DNA from: an uncultured Armatimonadota bacterium
GTDB taxonomy: Bacteria > Armatimonadota > Fimbriimonadia > Fimbriimonadales > Fimbriimonadaceae
Length of the DNA stretch: 64,000 nt
Direction of reading: 5' to 3'
Assembly: GCA_903899015.1 (NCBI GenBank)
Contig: CAIUHP010000028.1
Span: 62,001-126,000 of the forward strand
Below, piece by piece: positions 5,303-49,305 of this stretch; the stretch's first letter is position 1, and the number at the start of each line of letters is the position of its first letter. The notes beneath the pieces were generated by a model that was given only the letters and a program-made list of their open reading frames with translations, was not told the DNA's origin and searched no databases. Both the position numbers and the translations under genes were made by a program.

Positions 5303-6619
5303 ATGTCAGCGACCGCAGATGCTCACAATCATCGACTTCCACTTGCTCAGGCGGACCCAACCGTTTCTGCCCTTATTCAAAGGGAAGAAGCTCGCCAAGA
5401 GCACAATCTTGAACTGATTGCCAGCGAGAACATCGCCAGCCTTGCTGTTCGGCAGGCGATGATGAGCGTTCTAACCGATAAATATGCCGAAGGGTATCCC
5501 GGAGCGCGATATTACGGTGGCTGCGAAGTAGTTGATGAGGTTGAGAACATTGCCCGAGACCGAGCCAAGGAACTTTTTGGCGCCGAATATGTTAACGTTC
5601 AACCGCACTCCGGCAGCCAAGCCAACATGGCGGTTTACTTCACGTTCATCAAGCCAGGAGATACGGTTATGGGTATGGATTTGTCCCAAGGTGGACACCT
5701 TACTCATGGTTCGGGAGTCAATTTTTCGGGGCAACTGTACAATTTTGTGCCCTACGGCATTGATCCTAAGACTGAGCTGATCGATTACGATCTCGTGGCC
5801 TACACTGCCAAGAAAGTTAAGCCCAAAATGATCACAGTGGGTGCGAGTGCTTACTCTCGAATGATTGACTTCAAGGCCTTTCGTGAGATTGCTGACTCGG
5901 TCGGTGCCTTTTTGTTTGCGGATATTGCCCACCCAGCTGGGCTAATCGCGAAAGGTTTGCTACCCAGCCCGATTCAACATGCTCACGTAGTAACAACCAC
6001 TACTCATAAAACCCTTCGTGGCCCAAGAGGCGGCATGATTCTCGTAGGTAAGGATTTTGAGAACACTTTTGGAATCGTTGCTCCCAAGAGCGGCCGAACG
6101 AAAATGATTTCAGAACTGCTGGACAGCATGGTCATTCCCGGAGTCCAGGGTGGTCCTTTAATGCACGTGATCGCGGCTAAGGCAATCGGGTTTGGTGAAA
6201 ACTTGACTGAAGAGTTTGACGACTACGCCCGACAGATCATCAAGAATGCAAACGCATTAGCGACGGCCCTAATGGCAGAAGGTTTCCACATTATTTCCGG
6301 TGGAACCGACAATCACCTCATGCTGATTGACCTTCGAAACAAGGGCCTCACCGGAAAGGCGGCTCAGCTCGCGCTTGATCAGGCAAACATCACTTGTAAC
6401 AAGAATTCTGTTCCTTTTGATGATAAGTCTCCGCTAGTGACGAGCGGCATTCGACTCGGTACACCCGCGATTACAACTCGCGGCATGAAAGAACCGGAAA
6501 TGCAAGTAGTGGCGTCGCTTATCAGCAAACTACTGTCCAACATCGAAGATCCAGCCAACATCGCGGAAGTGCGGCAGGGTGTAATTGATCTTTGCTCGAA
6601 ATTCCCAATCCACGGTTAA
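5303..6619 (+). CDS. glyA: Serine hydroxymethyltransferase
   Basis: A 438-residue PLP enzyme that moves a one-carbon unit between serine and tetrahydrofolate, supplying glycine and methylene-THF. Diagnostic stretches are [33 protein letters not shown] and the PLP-lysine motif [14 protein letters not shown]. Length is normal (410-440). The ATG at 5303 follows CATAAT by six bases; GAGGG between them could serve as a ribosome site or, if CATAAT is a -10 box, the mRNA is leaderless. The next gene begins 4 bases after the stop, suggesting co-transcription. Confidence 0.97.
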
Positions 6620-38672: not shown

Positions 38673-39737
38673 ATGCGACTAGTCGTCACCGGTGGTGGAA
38701 CAGGCGGTCATATCTATCCCGCGCTTGAAGTGGGGCGATTAGCAGTCGAAAATGGAGCTGTCCTCCATTACTTCGGATCTTTACGGGGACAGGAGCAAAA
38801 GATCACTGCGAACCTAGGGATTTCCTTTCAAGGCTTTCCATCGGAACCGCTTTACAGTGTACGGACGCTCAGGGGCTTAAAGGCGGCTGTGAACTTACAG
38901 AGAGCCCGACTCATGGCACGCAAGGCCCTGAAGCTAACTGCGCCAGACGTCGTGTTTTCAACGGGAGGCTACAGTGCAGGACCAGTCGTGGCGGCAGCAC
39001 GAGATTTAGGGATTCCCTACACGATTCATACCGCAGACAGCGTGCCAGCCCGATCTTCGAGGATGTTTGCTAAGCAGGCGGCTGCCTTCTCATGCACTTT
39101 TCGGTCCACGATAGACCGCATGCCTGATATTTCGGTTGTGAGGACCGGGCAACCGATTCGAAAGGCTTTAAGGCAAGCTGCTCAGTTCATCGAAGACAAG
39201 CCTCCGATGGTTTTGGTTGTTGGGGGATCGCAGGGTTCCAAGTTCCTAAACGAAAATGTCCCGCAGATGGCGATAGTCGGTGGTTTCGACGTACGTGTTC
39301 TTCATTTGACGGGGCTAGCCAATATCGAATCGACCCGCAAGTTTGTCTCCGGCCTAGGCATTAGCGATCGTTACGAAGTGGTTCCGTTCTTAAATGCAGA
39401 TGAGATGACGGAAGCGTATCTCCATTCCACCGTAGTGATCGGTAGGAGTGGTGGAACCCTCGCCGAACTTGCTCTTTTTGGATTGCCGAGCGTTTTGGTC
39501 CCTCTTCCGGACTCTGCGAATAACCATCAGTTCCATAATGCTATGGAGTTTGTTGGTATGGGAGCAGCGACTTTGATGCCCCAGGCAGATATAACACCTG
39601 AGACCCTCCATCAATCAGTGATGGAGTGGGTTGGGAACAGCGAGCGTCGAAACGGTGCTCGGGAAGTTTTGAGTAAGTGGGATGTTCCCGATGCGACGGA
39701 ACGCATCGTAGAACTTATTGATCAAGCGGCAAAATGA
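38673..39737 (+). CDS. murG: UDP-GlcNAc:lipid I transferase MurG
   Basis: A 354-residue GT-B enzyme converting lipid I to lipid II at the inner face of the membrane. Motifs: VTGGGTGGHIYPALEV, FSTGGYSAGPVVAAA, VVGGSQGSKFLNENV and GRSGGTLAELALFGLPSVLV with NNHQFHNAMEF. The ATG at 38673 is preferred; TTG at 38661 would add four residues. It is 37 bases after ftsW, the widest gap within this part of the cluster, and its stop overlaps murC-ddl (ATGA). Confidence 0.95.
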   Translation: MRLVVTGGGTGGHIYPALEVGRLAVENGAVLHYFGSLRGQEQKITANLGISFQGFPSEPLYSVRTLRGLKAAVNLQRARLMARKALKLTAPDVVFSTGGYSAGPVVAAARDLGIPYTIHTADSVPARSSRMFAKQAAAFSCTFRSTIDRMPDISVVRTGQPIRKALRQAAQFIEDKPPMVLVVGGSQGSKFLNENVPQMAIVGGFDVRVLHLTGLANIESTRKFVSGLGISDRYEVVPFLNADEMTEAYLHSTVVIGRSGGTLAELALFGLPSVLVPLPDSANNHQFHNAMEFVGMGAATLMPQADITPETLHQSVMEWVGNSERRNGAREVLSKWDVPDATERIVELIDQAAK

Positions 39738-42142
39738 GAAAACACGGAGAGATTGGTACAGCATTTTCGGAACGAGATTCCCTGGACGGAAGGGGATCGT
39801 TCTTCCTCGTAGGGATCGGGGGAGCCGGGATGAGCGCACTTGCTCGGATGCTGGTCCACCGCGGTTTTGAAGTCCGAGGAACGGATTCAACCGCATCCGT
39901 AGAGGTTGGGCGCCTTCGAGCCGAAGGAATTGAAGTACACATCGGTCACAGCGGAGAAGAAATTCGGCAGGACGACGCGCTGATTCTCACTGATGCGATT
40001 GATCTAGAAATTTCCCCAGAGTATGCAAAGGGCAAAGAGCTTGGAATTCCGATTGTTCGCAGGTCGCAAGCCCTCTCGTGGATGCTAAAGGGCAAAAGAG
40101 TCATTGCGGTGACGGGCACTCACGGAAAGACGACGACAACGGGCATGCTCGGTATGGGACTCTCGGAAGGAGGGCTCGATCCACTCGTCATCGTTGGAGC
40201 AAATATTCCCCAGTTTGGTGGGCCAGTCCACGAAGGGAATGGAGATTGGGCGGTTGTAGAAGCATGTGAAGCCTACGATAGCTTCCACGACCTTGATCCC
40301 TACATTGTCCTTCTGACCAACCTGGAACTCGATCACGTCGATTTTCACGGGAATTTCGACAACCTGAGAGCCAGTGTCTTTCGGTTTGTTCAAAAGATCC
40401 CGTCCGATGGGTTTTTGGTTTACTGTGCAGCCGATGCTGGTGCAGCCGAAATAGCCAACCTGTGCTCTTGTAAGGTGATCGGTTATAACTCCGGCGACTT
40501 CGATCGAATTCTTTCTGCGTATACCGGTATCAACCATTCGGGTCCCTCTCAGCGCGGTGCACACAATTTGCTCAATGCTTCGGGTGCCCTGGTTGTCGCG
40601 GAAGCGATTGATGCCGCAAATGAAAAGACGGCTGCTGGCGTCATGTTTTTCAACGGAGCTGAGCGCAGACAGCAACTCTTGATGGCTGGTCGAAAGCCTT
40701 ACGACGTAAAGAGCACAGACCCGATTGAAATTCCTAAAGGGCAACCCGTTGATACCTTTATCGTGATCGATGACTACGCTCATCATCCAACGGAAGTGCG
40801 GGAAAGCCTGAAGGCTATCCGAAGCGCATATGTCGAGCCACGGCAAGAGAAAGTCCGGCTCATCGTCGTTTTTCAGCCTCATCTTTACTCCCGCACTCAA
40901 GATATGATCAGTGAGTTCGCCGATGCTCTCAGCATTGCCGATGAAGTGGTGATCACCGACATCTATCCCGCACGAGAAGCCCCGATACCGGGCGTGAGTT
41001 CTTCCCGAATCGCTGAGAAAGTCACCAAACCGATCCACTACATTCCGTCCCGCCACTTGTTGGCGATGAAAGTCGCCCGAATGGTGGAACAGGGAGACGT
41101 CATCGTGGGAATGGGTGCGGGCAACATCTCGGAATTCGCTCCAAGCTTGATCAGCGAATTGAGTCGCATCTACGATTTGGATTCAATGAAAGAAGGATCG
41201 GGAAAGCTTCCTGCCGCAAGACCTCTCAAAATCGCGGTCATTTATGGAGGAGACAGCGCTGAACGAGAAGTAAGTTTGCATTCGGGACGCGAAATCCATG
41301 GAGCGCTGACAAGACTTGGGCACGAAAGCCGACTTGTCGATGTCACCGATCTTCTGTTTAGCGGGGCCGACCTTGGATCCTTTATCGGTCCCGATCGTCC
41401 TGACTTGGCCTTTCTCGCGGTTCATGGAACACATGCAGAAGATGGTGCGATTCAAGGTTTGCTTGAACTCCTCCACATTCCGTATACCGGGTCTGGAATC
41501 CAAGCCAGCGCCATTGCACTCGACAAGGCTCTAACGAAGAAGATTCTTGAGCAAAACGGCATTCGGGTTCCGAAAGGTGTTTTGTTGTCCGAACCAGAAA
41601 AGCCCCTGAATATCCATCCTCCCCTGATCGTGAAGCCTAATTCACAAGGTTCCACGGTGGGACTCACCTTCGTTGAAGACGGCAGCGAGCTATGTGCGGC
41701 TTTGGTTAATGGATTCGCCTACGACGAGGCGGTTTTGGTTGAGGAATGGATTGTGGGAATGGAAATCTCGGTCCCAGTGTTGGATAGTAAAGCACTGTTG
41801 CCAGTAGAAATTGCGCCGACAAGTGGGAAATATGATTTCGAGAGTAAGTACACGCCGGGAGCGACAACTGAGATTGTTCCGGCACGCTTGCCTGCCCACA
41901 TTCTGGAAGAGGTTCAGTCAATCGCACTTCATTCTCACCAGGCATTGCGGTGCGAAGGGGCGACTCGTACCGACATGATCGTCCGAAACGAAGAAATTTT
42001 CGTCTTAGAAGTTAACACGCTGCCGGGGATGACTCGAACAAGCCTTCTCCCCAACAGTGCGGCTGGGATGGGAATCGGTTTCGATCAGCTTTGTCAATTG
42101 TTAGTGGAGGATGCGGTCAGGCGAAATGCGCAAAAAGCGTAA
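39734..42142 (+). CDS. murC-ddl: MurC-Ddl fusion protein
   Basis: An 802-residue bifunctional cytoplasmic protein. Residues 1-~470 are MurC (L-Ala addition to UDP-MurNAc): GIGGAGMSALARMLVHRGFE, GTHGKTTTTGML, NLELDHVDFHGNF, DDYAHHPTEVRESL. Residues ~498-802 are D-Ala-D-Ala ligase: AVIYGGDSAEREVSLHSG, AFLAVHGTHAEDGAIQG, GSGIQASAIALDK, KPNSQGSTVGL, VEEWIVGMEISV and LEVNTLPGMTRTSLLPNSA. Both active sites are intact. MurC-Ddl fusions are known from Chlamydiae, and they couple the two non-sequential steps. murB, often found between murC and ddl, is absent. Confidence 0.95.
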   Translation: MRKHGEIGTAFSERDSLDGRGSFFLVGIGGAGMSALARMLVHRGFEVRGTDSTASVEVGRLRAEGIEVHIGHSGEEIRQDDALILTDAIDLEISPEYAKGKELGIPIVRRSQALSWMLKGKRVIAVTGTHGKTTTTGMLGMGLSEGGLDPLVIVGANIPQFGGPVHEGNGDWAVVEACEAYDSFHDLDPYIVLLTNLELDHVDFHGNFDNLRASVFRFVQKIPSDGFLVYCAADAGAAEIANLCSCKVIGYNSGDFDRILSAYTGINHSGPSQRGAHNLLNASGALVVAEAIDAANEKTAAGVMFFNGAERRQQLLMAGRKPYDVKSTDPIEIPKGQPVDTFIVIDDYAHHPTEVRESLKAIRSAYVEPRQEKVRLIVVFQPHLYSRTQDMISEFADALSIADEVVITDIYPAREAPIPGVSSSRIAEKVTKPIHYIPSRHLLAMKVARMVEQGDVIVGMGAGNISEFAPSLISELSRIYDLDSMKEGSGKLPAARPLKIAVIYGGDSAEREVSLHSGREIHGALTRLGHESRLVDVTDLLFSGADLGSFIGPDRPDLAFLAVHGTHAEDGAIQGLLELLHIPYTGSGIQASAIALDKALTKKILEQNGIRVPKGVLLSEPEKPLNIHPPLIVKPNSQGSTVGLTFVEDGSELCAALVNGFAYDEAVLVEEWIVGMEISVPVLDSKALLPVEIAPTSGKYDFESKYTPGATTEIVPARLPAHILEEVQSIALHSHQALRCEGATRTDMIVRNEEIFVLEVNTLPGMTRTSLLPNSAAGMGIGFDQLCQLLVEDAVRRNAQKA

Positions 42143-46776: not shown

Positions 46777-46896
46777 AGACTTAACTTAACTTTACGAGAA
46801 AATGTGAGAACTAAGTGCTTGAAGCGGCAAAACAGAAACGATAAACCAAGTTGAACGTCACTTTTACAGAGTGTACGCAATGCGAGGGTCTCTTTC

Positions 46897-47520
46897 GTGG
46901 TAGAAAGCACAGTTATGGGATACGATGCGTCTTTGAGTGGACGCATGGAGTTGGATACCGATAGCGCTTTAGTCAAACAGGCGCGAGACGGTGACTACGG
47001 GGCTTTCGAAAAGCTCTTCGATCGTCACCGTGTCTTAGTGTATCGATTTGCCTACCAAATGACCTCCCGTCGAGACGATGCAGAAGATATCGTTCAAGAG
47101 GCATTTGTTCGTGCGTATCAAAATTTACATCGTTATCGAGACGAAGCAAAGTTCACCACTTGGTTGCTCAGGATTGCTACGAATCTCTGTACGGACCAAG
47201 CACGAATGGCTCAGCGAAGATTGGCGTTAGAACAACAAGAGGCTGCGGGAGCTCTTGATTGGATGACCAGTGGAGATACCGAAGACCCTATTCAGAATTT
47301 AGAAGCGAATCGCCGAAAAATAGCCTTAAGAAAGGCATTGAACGCATTGCCTGCGCATCATAGAGCAGTAATCGTATTGAGAGACATCGAAGAAAGGGAA
47401 TACCCTGATATGGCAGCTATATTAGGCTGTACTGTTGGCGGAGCTAAACTCCGTGTACTGCGTGCTCGCCGGGCTCTTAAAGACAGAATTGCCCCTTTGC
47501 TTGGGGAGGACATGAAATGA
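46897..47520 (+). CDS. ECF (RpoE-like) sigma factor
   Basis: A 207-residue sigma-70 family factor with region 2 (about 30-98: ALVKQARDGDYGAFEKLFDR, DDAEDIVQEAFVRAYQNLHR, FTTWLLRIATNLCTDQ) and region 4 (about 145-200: ALNALPAHHRAVIVLRDIEE, EYPDMAAILGCTVGGAKLRV). No regions 1 or 3. GTG at 46897 has GAGGG eight bases upstream; ATG at 46915 is the alternative. Its stop overlaps the next gene as ATGA, the usual sigma/anti-sigma coupling. Typical of extracytoplasmic stress control. Confidence 0.95.
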   Translation: MVESTVMGYDASLSGRMELDTDSALVKQARDGDYGAFEKLFDRHRVLVYRFAYQMTSRRDDAEDIVQEAFVRAYQNLHRYRDEAKFTTWLLRIATNLCTDQARMAQRRLALEQQEAAGALDWMTSGDTEDPIQNLEANRRKIALRKALNALPAHHRAVIVLRDIEEREYPDMAAILGCTVGGAKLRVLRARRALKDRIAPLLGEDMK

Positions 47521-48275
47521 ACGGAAAGTTTGAAGAAAAACTAGCCCAACTTGCATTCGGAGATTTATCCGAGGGTGAAGCGCGTCAGCTAGAGCTAGAG
47601 GCGGATCGAGATCCGGAAGCTCGCCGAGCGCTTATGATGTACAAGGACATGCGCAATAGCCTGCGTGGACTTGCTGAAATCCCTGAGGATCAATTTTCTA
47701 AAGAACGACTTCGAGATGCAATTCTTACTCAAGGTCTGAAGCCTGCTCCCACCCGACCGATTTCTAATCGAACTTGGCTATGGATGCCAGTAGCCGCATG
47801 TGCGCTCGGGTTCGGCTTTGTGATGATGCGACACTCATTCGAAAAGGGCCGATTAAACCCTGAGATCGTGATGGGGCCATCGGTGACCAAGACGACCAAG
47901 CTTCTTGGCATCTCGCCTAGTATCCGAGTCGCGGTCAACAATACAACTAACGATTCTCGAATGGTACATGCGACAGTTGCTTCCGTGAAGCATGGCCCTT
48001 CATCGGGTCGACACCGTTCGCATCGTCATTCGATCGATAGTGAATCAACGCCGGATTTAAGTGCAAGTTGGCCAGAGTTGACCTATGAAGGTTTCGATCC
48101 CGGAATAACGCATGGACCTGCAGTTACGGCAGCATCGCTTCCGCAGCCGACAACGGTGGCTTCAACTGCCGATAATGGACCGATTGTTTTCATTGACCAG
48201 GATAAAGACGCCTTGACCGGTGCACAACACGCCACGGAGGTTGGCAGCGCAAGCAATGTTCTTGTTGGCGGCTAA
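47517..48275 (+). CDS. Putative anti-sigma factor, single-pass membrane protein
   Basis: A 252-residue protein with an N-terminal cytoplasmic helical segment (FEEKLAQLAFGDLSEGEARQ ... SLRGLAEIPEDQF), one membrane helix (about 86-103, WLWMPVAACALGFGFVMM) and a ~145-residue external Thr/Ser-rich tail. There is no HxxxCxxC zinc motif, so it would be a zinc-free anti-sigma. The call rests on ATGA coupling to the ECF sigma gene and topology. The following HtrA-like gene starts inside its end. Confidence 0.75.
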   Translation: MNGKFEEKLAQLAFGDLSEGEARQLELEADRDPEARRALMMYKDMRNSLRGLAEIPEDQFSKERLRDAILTQGLKPAPTRPISNRTWLWMPVAACALGFGFVMMRHSFEKGRLNPEIVMGPSVTKTTKLLGISPSIRVAVNNTTNDSRMVHATVASVKHGPSSGRHRSHRHSIDSESTPDLSASWPELTYEGFDPGITHGPAVTAASLPQPTTVASTADNGPIVFIDQDKDALTGAQHATEVGSASNVLVGG

Positions 48276-49305
48276 ATTAGCGTTTGCGATGATGGGAGGC
48301 GAGGCGCAAGCCGATCGCCTAACCGATCACGAAAAAACGGTATGGAATCAGTACCGTTCAGCGATCGTGACATTGTACGAGCAGGGTCATCCTTCCGGTG
48401 TAGCGGCACTCATCGACGACAGCGGATATTTCGTCACCCACAATAGCAGTGTGTCGTCGGCTTCGATCACAGGGAAGTCTTCGAATGGTAAGGAACTGAC
48501 TTTCTCGGTTATCGATCGTGACCGCGCAACTCAACTTGTCCTGTTGAAGACAACCGGCTGGGTGGCGGGCACCGCACGCCCTTTCAGAATTCCTACTGAC
48601 AATGAGGCCGATGGAGGAGGATTGCTGGCCGTTCTGCCCACTGGGCCGATTCGAGCCTCTTACATGTCACGTCATCGATTCGGGTTGCTGAAGACTTCTC
48701 GCAGACTCGTGACGCTCACTGAGATCCGCTTTGAAGCCTCGCCGCAACTGGTGGGTGGCGCTCTGATCCTGTGCGAGAATGGTGAATTTATCGGAGCGCT
48801 GAATGCAACGCTTGATCGACCAGAAACCCTCGATAATCAGGGTCAAAACAGCCAAGGTGGGCAAACGCTCAACAATACAACTCCTATCATTAGTGGGCCG
48901 GGAGTGCAGGTTGGGCCGCAAAACCAGATGCGGCAGTTCTCGAACCAGGGACCTGCTGAAATGACGGTGGCCTATACGGTGGGGCCGGAAGTTGTCCAGC
49001 ACACCCTCCAAGGCTTCTTGTCTCCGAGCCATGAGGCTGAGTACGCATCGTTAGGCATTTTTTGCACCGACGCAATCGGCGGCGGGGCGCAAATTCAAAA
49101 GGTAACTCCTGGGTCCCCCGCAGCTAAGTCCAAGCTCCAGCCGGGCGATATTCTGATGAATATCAACTATCACGAAATTCCAGATCAAGTTGCCTTCGCG
49201 ACCGTAATGCTACAACAGGCCGTTGGGAAAAAGATCACCCTTGTTATCAAAAGGGGCCGATCAACCGTGTGGGTCGACATCGTTCCTGCCAAGGCAACCA
49301 ACTAG
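48220..49305 (+). CDS. HtrA-like protein with inactive protease domain plus PDZ
   Basis: A 361-residue exported protein (signal peptide up to about residue 32, EAQA-DRL). Residues ~40-190 follow the trypsin-like HtrA fold: SAIVTLYEQGHPSGVAALID, GYFVTHNSSVSS (69-80), RATQLVLLKTTGW, VGGALILCENGEFIGALN. However the catalytic triad positions read Ser76 (for His), Gln105 (for Asp) and Val178 (for Ser of GNSGG). A Gln/Asn-rich linker precedes a normal PDZ domain (~275-358: IQKVTPGSPAAKSKLQPGDI). It is likely a non-proteolytic binding or sensing protein for the sigma/anti-sigma pair it overlaps. Start GTG 48220 or ATG 48256. Confidence 0.82.
   Translation: MHNTPRRLAAQAMFLLAAKLAFAMMGGEAQADRLTDHEKTVWNQYRSAIVTLYEQGHPSGVAALIDDSGYFVTHNSSVSSASITGKSSNGKELTFSVIDRDRATQLVLLKTTGWVAGTARPFRIPTDNEADGGGLLAVLPTGPIRASYMSRHRFGLLKTSRRLVTLTEIRFEASPQLVGGALILCENGEFIGALNATLDRPETLDNQGQNSQGGQTLNNTTPIISGPGVQVGPQNQMRQFSNQGPAEMTVAYTVGPEVVQHTLQGFLSPSHEAEYASLGIFCTDAIGGGAQIQKVTPGSPAAKSKLQPGDILMNINYHEIPDQVAFATVMLQQAVGKKITLVIKRGRSTVWVDIVPAKATN

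Follow-up and report, generated by a model that had tools for sequence, protein, structure and literature searches.

Operon architecture

The window, the whole 64,000-nucleotide stretch of Armatimonadota DNA analysed here, carries three consecutive open reading frames (ORFs) on the + strand at 46897-49305. The ORF list, Pfam and a modelled helix at residues 85-108 of the middle protein bear out the initial annotation of three overlapping genes for an ECF sigma factor, a single-pass anti-sigma factor and an HtrA-like protein. Families of relatives are denoted f1 (that of the window), f5, f2, f3 and f4 (others of its order) and f19 and f13 (outside its class). The features of the locus are as follows.

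46835-46859, + strand: ECF-type promoter GAAAC-N16-CGTC, upstream of the sigma gene
46897-47520, + strand: ECF sigma factor, 207 aa (Pfam Sigma70_r2 and Sigma70_r4_2)
47517-48275, + strand: membrane-bound anti-sigma factor, 252 aa, zinc motif lost (middle-gene position in relatives, NCBIfam, model helices)
47769-47840, + strand: predicted transmembrane helix, anti-sigma residues 85-108 (AlphaFold secondary structure, hydrophobic sequence)
48180-48272, + strand: conserved C-terminal module of the anti-sigma factor, residues 222-252, PIVFIDQDKDALTGAQHATEVGSASNVLVGG, a block after the variable linker
48236-48241, + strand: GGAGGT within the anti-sigma gene, the likely ribosome-binding site for the HtrA-like ORF; also in the tail codons of relatives
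48256-49305, + strand: pseudo-HtrA, 349 aa, with signal peptide, inactive trypsin-like domain and PDZ domain (conserved start, model, structure matches)
48352-48819, + strand: degenerate protease domain (limits approximate), triad replaced by Ser, Gln and Val/Gly
49051-49278, + strand: PDZ domain (Pfam PDZ_2, residues 278-353 of the 361-aa ORF)

The first protein matched Sigma70_r2 (E = 6.8e-21) and Sigma70_r4_2 (E = 1.4e-11) above both Pfam cut-offs and, with regions 2 and 4, an anti-sigma neighbour and an ECF-type promoter, is an ECF sigma factor; the sigma of the nearest relative is 91% identical. Its gene overlaps that of the anti-sigma factor by 4 bases. The HtrA-like ORF was listed at 48220-49305 from a GTG start at 48220 (361 aa), and ATG 48256 is the likely true start because relatives keep a start codon at this spot, exactly 20 bases upstream of the anti-sigma 3' end (62 of 79 f1/f5 loci). 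With this start the two genes overlap by 20 bases, and the former triad positions become Ser64, Gln93 and Val166 or Gly167; residue numbers below follow the 361-aa ORF. Elsewhere in the window, positions 39734-42142 hold a single ORF of 802 aa, apparently a fusion of MurC and D-Ala-D-Ala ligase.

An HtrA fold with a lost catalytic triad

The third-gene protein matched PDZ_2 in Pfam with 38.4 bits (cut-off 27) and did not match Trypsin_2. Its AlphaFold model, built from 44 sequences, reached a pLDDT of 86.6 and a pTM of 0.81 and, as a Foldseek query, aligned with the protease and PDZ1 domains of DegQ (3stj, E = 3.5e-17). VIA Z scores were 22.2 for Deg1, 21.4 for AlgW, 21.3 for DegS and 21.1 for MucD, within a range of 18.7-22.2 across Deg1, HtrA, DegS, DegP and others, and structures of the mycobacterial HtrA Rv1223 were also among the matches. 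By model and Pfam, the protein is thus a member of the HtrA/Deg fold family, with a trypsin-like domain followed by a PDZ domain; the absence of other folds from the Foldseek and VIA lists carries no information, since HtrA relatives fill both.

Alignment to active HtrAs placed Ser at position 76 in place of His and Gln at position 105 in place of Asp, as first annotated, whereas the nucleophile position, annotated as Val178, falls on Val178 in one alignment register and on Gly179 in another, with Ser in neither. The alignment leaves no intact triad elsewhere in the protein, because no His is conserved in the family. With the His-Asp-Ser triad and the GNSGG loop both gone, the protein falls outside the active HtrA/Deg serine proteases, and catalysis is disfavoured on these alignments. 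A family-conserved motif, R-x-x-P-L-x-E-x-R-x-E, occupies residues 162-172 ahead of the lost Ser (R162 in 42/45, E168 in 41/45 and E172 in 42/45 sequences); neither of the two active HtrAs of the window's genome keeps it as a whole.

Distribution of the operon

With the window protein as query, 46 of 61 genomes gave a match at E <= 1e-5, and a profile search matched 111 of the 113 genomes of the class at E <= 1e-10, a count that includes active HtrAs. Copies within the operon numbered 102 in 101 of the 113 genomes, one genome (G059) having two, and were distributed as 76 in f1, 8 in f5, 17 in f2 and 1 in f3. The complete three-gene set was present at 94 of these 102 loci (80/85 and 14/17), the remaining eight reaching a contig end or a run of N. 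Twelve genomes of the class yielded no operonic copy: eight also had no sigma gene at E <= 1e-40, three had the sigma gene on a contig ending inside the operon (two of them showing the complete anti-sigma tail), and one f4 genome had a 61% identical sigma followed by a different ORF and then a truncated one (locus L243, G039:C149). Outside the class, the identical gene order was seen in seven f19 and six f13 genomes (13 loci); the other high-scoring outer loci fetched encoded HtrAs with active motifs and no sigma gene alongside. The search with a dedicated profile covered 80 genomes, nearly all outside the class. The three genes therefore stay linked in relatives across the class and beyond, and the PDZ domain, annotated as intact in the window, is kept across these relatives.

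Two further observations concern single genomes. Two members of the window's family (G087 and G088, approximately 1.5 Mb, 97% complete) have neither a close sigma nor a pseudo-HtrA. At another locus (L098, G079:C2, 1392-5096, - strand), sigma-like and short anti-sigma-like ORFs lie approximately 1 kb upstream of an HtrA with an intact triad, an arrangement that is possibly an active counterpart of the operon.

Its occurrence across the class and in 13 genomes outside shows that the operon is not a decaying oddity. That the pseudo-HtrA is nonetheless a decaying gene riding along in the operon would agree with its fast evolution, several end branches of the tree described below exceeding 1.5, but roughly 100 species of the class, together with the two outer families, keep an intact frame, PDZ domain and fold core, and loss of the pseudo-HtrA mostly coincides with loss of the sigma gene; we regard decay as exceedingly improbable.

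History of the triad loss

His was found at the triad position in none of the 108 operonic copies aligned there (110 rows, two of them gapped at this position), against 14 of 14 active HtrAs, so that the HtrA shell described as dead in the window is dead by this measure throughout. The triad counts exclude HtrA-like ORFs scoring under 85 bits (L097) and enter two loci (L096 and L098) as active. Five further f13 copies likewise had no His and retained Ser. The His position is mostly Ser in f1 (41/76) and is taken by an acid in f5 (7/8), f2 (16/16), f3 (1/1) and f19 (7/7) and, by reading, in f13. Asp is retained in nine of 108 copies (seven f5, two f1), its position being occupied by Gln in 50/76 f1 copies, by Gly in 15/17 f2 copies and by Asn in f19 and f13. 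Ser is retained in 15 of 110 copies (seven f19, one f13, one f3, three f2 and three f1); it survives in both outer families and is mostly gone in the window's class, where most f1, f5 and f2 copies have lost it (3/17 f2 copies keep it) and where f1 and f2 carry an altered GNSGG loop. One f13 copy (L229, 1583-2890, - strand) has a full GNSGGP loop, but with His replaced by Glu and Asp by Asn; a second, weaker HtrA-like ORF follows it at 274-1605.

These residues bear on whether the pseudo-HtrA could still be an enzyme that uses other residues. The Ser of the f19, f13, f3 and three f2 copies would fit such a role, as would the acid at the His position in f5, f2, f3, f19 and f13; the disappearance of Ser from most f1, f5 and f2 copies, the want of a conserved His in any family and the rewritten loop of f1 and f2 speak against it and make continued enzymatic activity very unlikely.

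A tree built from 47 operonic sequences and 14 active ones, in which f1 was sampled with 14 of its 76 rows and the partial copy L092 was omitted, placed the two groups on opposite sides of one branch with 100/100 support. Two sequences were flagged as possibly falsely joined (L036 and L016) and four as long (L047, L095, L125 and L185), and shared fast evolution of the operonic rows may help the split. This branching points to a single origin of the operonic pseudo-HtrAs, and the simplest history would have His and Asp disappear in a single ancient event and Ser go only afterwards, within the window's class.

Promoter and regulon search

An ECF-type promoter precedes the sigma gene. Among loci whose sigma start has 150 or more bases of surrounding sequence, the pattern G[AT]AAC-N16-CGTC was found upstream of the sigma gene in 51/61 f1, 7/7 f5, 10/13 f2 and 0/1 f3 loci, the number expected in f1 by shuffling being 0.09. 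Its conservation there indicates autoregulation, and the promoter probably serves this purpose for the sigma operon. A regulon search in four genomes found the pattern more rarely than its reversed control in all of them (66 vs 87 in the window's genome; 108 vs 114, 58 vs 153 and 94 vs 116 in relatives), and sigma targets are therefore unreadable from the pattern. It was also absent from the fetched loci of active htrA genes (L001, L002) and of M50 genes (L193, L194), so that no link between the sigma regulon and these envelope proteases was found. The window holds a second match at 6262-6286 on the - strand.

The anti-sigma factor and its conserved tail

The anti-sigma factor had no Pfam match and a weak NCBIfam 'antisigma' match (E = 2.6e-4) below its cut-off. 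Its model places helices at residues 3-13, 19-31, 33-52 and 62-72, the first three being confident N-terminal helices. A conserved helix domain at the N-terminus is followed by the membrane helix, and a long variable linker then leads to a conserved C-terminal block, which has predicted strands at 223-230 and 237-242. Class I (ASDI) anti-sigma factors have a three-helix N-terminal domain and a fourth helix, often with an HxxxCxxC zinc motif. This motif is absent from the window protein, as first annotated, and the emphasis placed on its absence did not hold, since homologous operons carry it: HxxxCxxC was present in 0/72 f1, 4/7 f5, 14/14 f2, 1/1 f3, 7/7 f19 and 6/6 f13 loci. We thus rejected a zinc-free anti-sigma as the defining trait of the system; its loss, judged from these counts, is a derived trait of the window's family. 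The share of class I anti-sigma factors without a zinc motif is put at approximately 44% (PMC7406223).

The anti-sigma factor ends in a conserved tail, tallied here without loci missing the sigma or anti-sigma gene. The f1 and f5 tails are variants of ATEV....NV-V-GG, and -GG ends 65 of 79 loci (the source table's 80 rows include one f2 locus, L048); the other 14 ORFs end otherwise, and some of these (e.g. L103) may be wrong ORF choices. Tails elsewhere end in -SF (f2, 14/14), -Y (f13, 6/6), -[VI]E (f19, 7/7) and, in the single f3 locus, -DT. As endings vary by family, a universal tail motif was rejected.

Part of the conservation of the f1 tail is forced, because the HtrA gene draws its ribosome site, start codon and signal peptide from the same DNA. 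This dual coding is central to a competing account, according to which the tail is kept mainly for this reason, or is read by another protein (e.g. a tail-specific PDZ protease), while the pseudo-HtrA, a stress product of chaperone-like character, would simply happen to be encoded in the same operon. The 20-base overlap, the start at -20 in most f1/f5 loci and the GGAGGT in the tail codons all suit this account, whereas three lines of evidence oppose it. First, at the 62 loci whose start lies at -20, each of the two final anti-sigma codons begins with a base that falls on a wobble position of the HtrA frame, and these Gly-Gly codon sites are almost fixed to G (55/62 and 58/62) against a background of 0.34 for the wobble bases of HtrA codons 8-23 (binomial p = 7e-19 and 1e-22, with kinship of the loci ignored). 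Second, the f2 ending -SF persists while the overlapping HtrA residues vary between genera (MRLSVLFS, MSFRSN, MMCIHSN). Third, the tail ends are conserved where the genes, as called, have no overlap, at five of seven f19 loci (gaps of 13-16 bases) and three of six f13 loci (17-27 bases); the f19 agreement weighs less than that of f13, since the seven f19 genomes represent one genus and the f13 genomes several. The wobble G, the f2 ending and the non-overlapping loci together indicate that the tail is selected as a peptide, though not purely so, and leave the competing account distinctly unlikely.

A free, conserved C-terminus whose coding sequence immediately precedes the gene of a PDZ protein fits the expectation for a PDZ ligand, and its conservation suggests this role. 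The -F and -Y ends are of the hydrophobic kind usual among PDZ ligands, whereas a Gly-Gly C-terminus is, to our knowledge, not a usual one. PDZ pocket and tail type were compared as consensus lines, at which level co-variation was not established.

A proposed binding-based model of signal transduction

We give slightly better than even chances to the pseudo-HtrA being a non-proteolytic, RseB-like co-regulator whose PDZ domain holds the anti-sigma tail and gates its cleavage. The anti-sigma factor would keep the sigma factor at the inner membrane, and its long variable linker would display the conserved C-terminal module outside the cytoplasm, where the pseudo-HtrA, presumed to be exported, would hold the free C-terminus, most likely via PDZ. 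It would thereby shield the anti-sigma factor from a site-1 protease, which may be an active HtrA or a tail-specific protease, until a stress ligand, such as the C-termini that misfolded envelope proteins expose, enters into competition for the PDZ domain. Once freed, the anti-sigma factor would be cleaved first by the site-1 protease and next by one resembling RseP, which would allow the sigma factor to transcribe its own operon from the GAAAC-N16-CGTC promoter. Candidates for both cleavages exist, since the window's genome encodes an M50 protein resembling RseP as well as two Trypsin_2 proteins whose triads are intact. The initial annotation had proposed a binding sensor or lid; the conserved anti-sigma C-termini lend that proposal independent support, whereas we infer both the binding of the tail by the PDZ domain and the protective direction of its effect.

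The chief rival to protection is an adaptor role, in which the pseudo-HtrA would enter mixed assemblies with an active HtrA or hand the anti-sigma factor over to one, by analogy with MamO of magnetotactic bacteria, a pseudoprotease that activates MamE with no cutting of its own. Such a role has a precedent in PMC4794232, where proteolysis requires the triad of MamE and not that of MamO. The two active Trypsin_2 proteins of the genome could act as partners, and a conserved tail suits delivery as much as protection, but none of the loci read has an active HtrA inside the operon; we consider activation by this route rather unlikely.

Returning to protection by the pseudo-HtrA, a broader formulation is more tentative and to us somewhat less than evenly probable: the dead HtrA would be the sensor of a phylum-wide sigma circuit, its PDZ domain a lid on the anti-sigma C-terminus that foreign C-termini displace, with tail and pocket co-evolved (-VGG, -SF, -Y, -[VI]E) and a triad that was taken apart in steps, Ser going after His and Asp.

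Relation to known systems and significance

Known sigma-E circuits employ an HtrA protease that cuts the anti-sigma factor. DegS, AlgW and MucD share the protease-PDZ architecture of the pseudo-HtrA but have an active triad and cut substrates; DegS is encoded outside the rpoE operon, and RseB has a different fold from HtrA. A site-1 protease of the DegS type cuts the anti-sigma factor upon binding of outer-membrane protein C-termini by its PDZ domain. The mycobacterial sigE-rseA-htrA cluster has the order sigma, anti-sigma, HtrA, and the structure entries of its HtrA are titled serine protease, in contrast to the window protein, which is without a triad. PMC8103513 describes the DegS/RseB/RseP logic of Escherichia coli sigma-E, in which DegS cuts its substrate and an RseB-type partner guards the anti-sigma factor against cleavage, and an RpoE-RseA-RseB operon that resembles the present one in uniting an ECF sigma factor, a single-pass anti-sigma factor and an exported binding partner. 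The partner encoded here differs from RseB in having an HtrA fold with a PDZ domain; the comparison fits in logic and is a functional analogy. MamO, as portrayed in PMC4794232, is similar in that an HtrA fold was reused in a non-catalytic partner role after loss of catalysis, and differs in that it acts in magnetite formation and metal binding rather than in a sigma/anti-sigma operon.

A search of the open-licence PMC literature turned up no paper describing an inactive HtrA within a sigma operon, and none on the Armatimonadota operon studied here. Pseudo-HtrAs (MamO) and links between HtrA and sigma factors (DegS and the mycobacterial sigE cluster) are known, and by this search their combination appears to be new; the lineage-fixed anti-sigma tails and the ECF-type promoter before the sigma gene are additions of the present analysis.

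Overall, the sequences suggest that the system senses stress through binding and not through cleavage. A whole lineage retains an HtrA minus its cutting activity, which would separate PDZ sensing from proteolysis and offers a natural experiment on whether PDZ binding suffices to relay an envelope stress signal. The lineage-specific anti-sigma tails provide direct and cheap peptide-binding predictions, and the outer families that still have Ser may represent intermediates on a path from protease to regulator.
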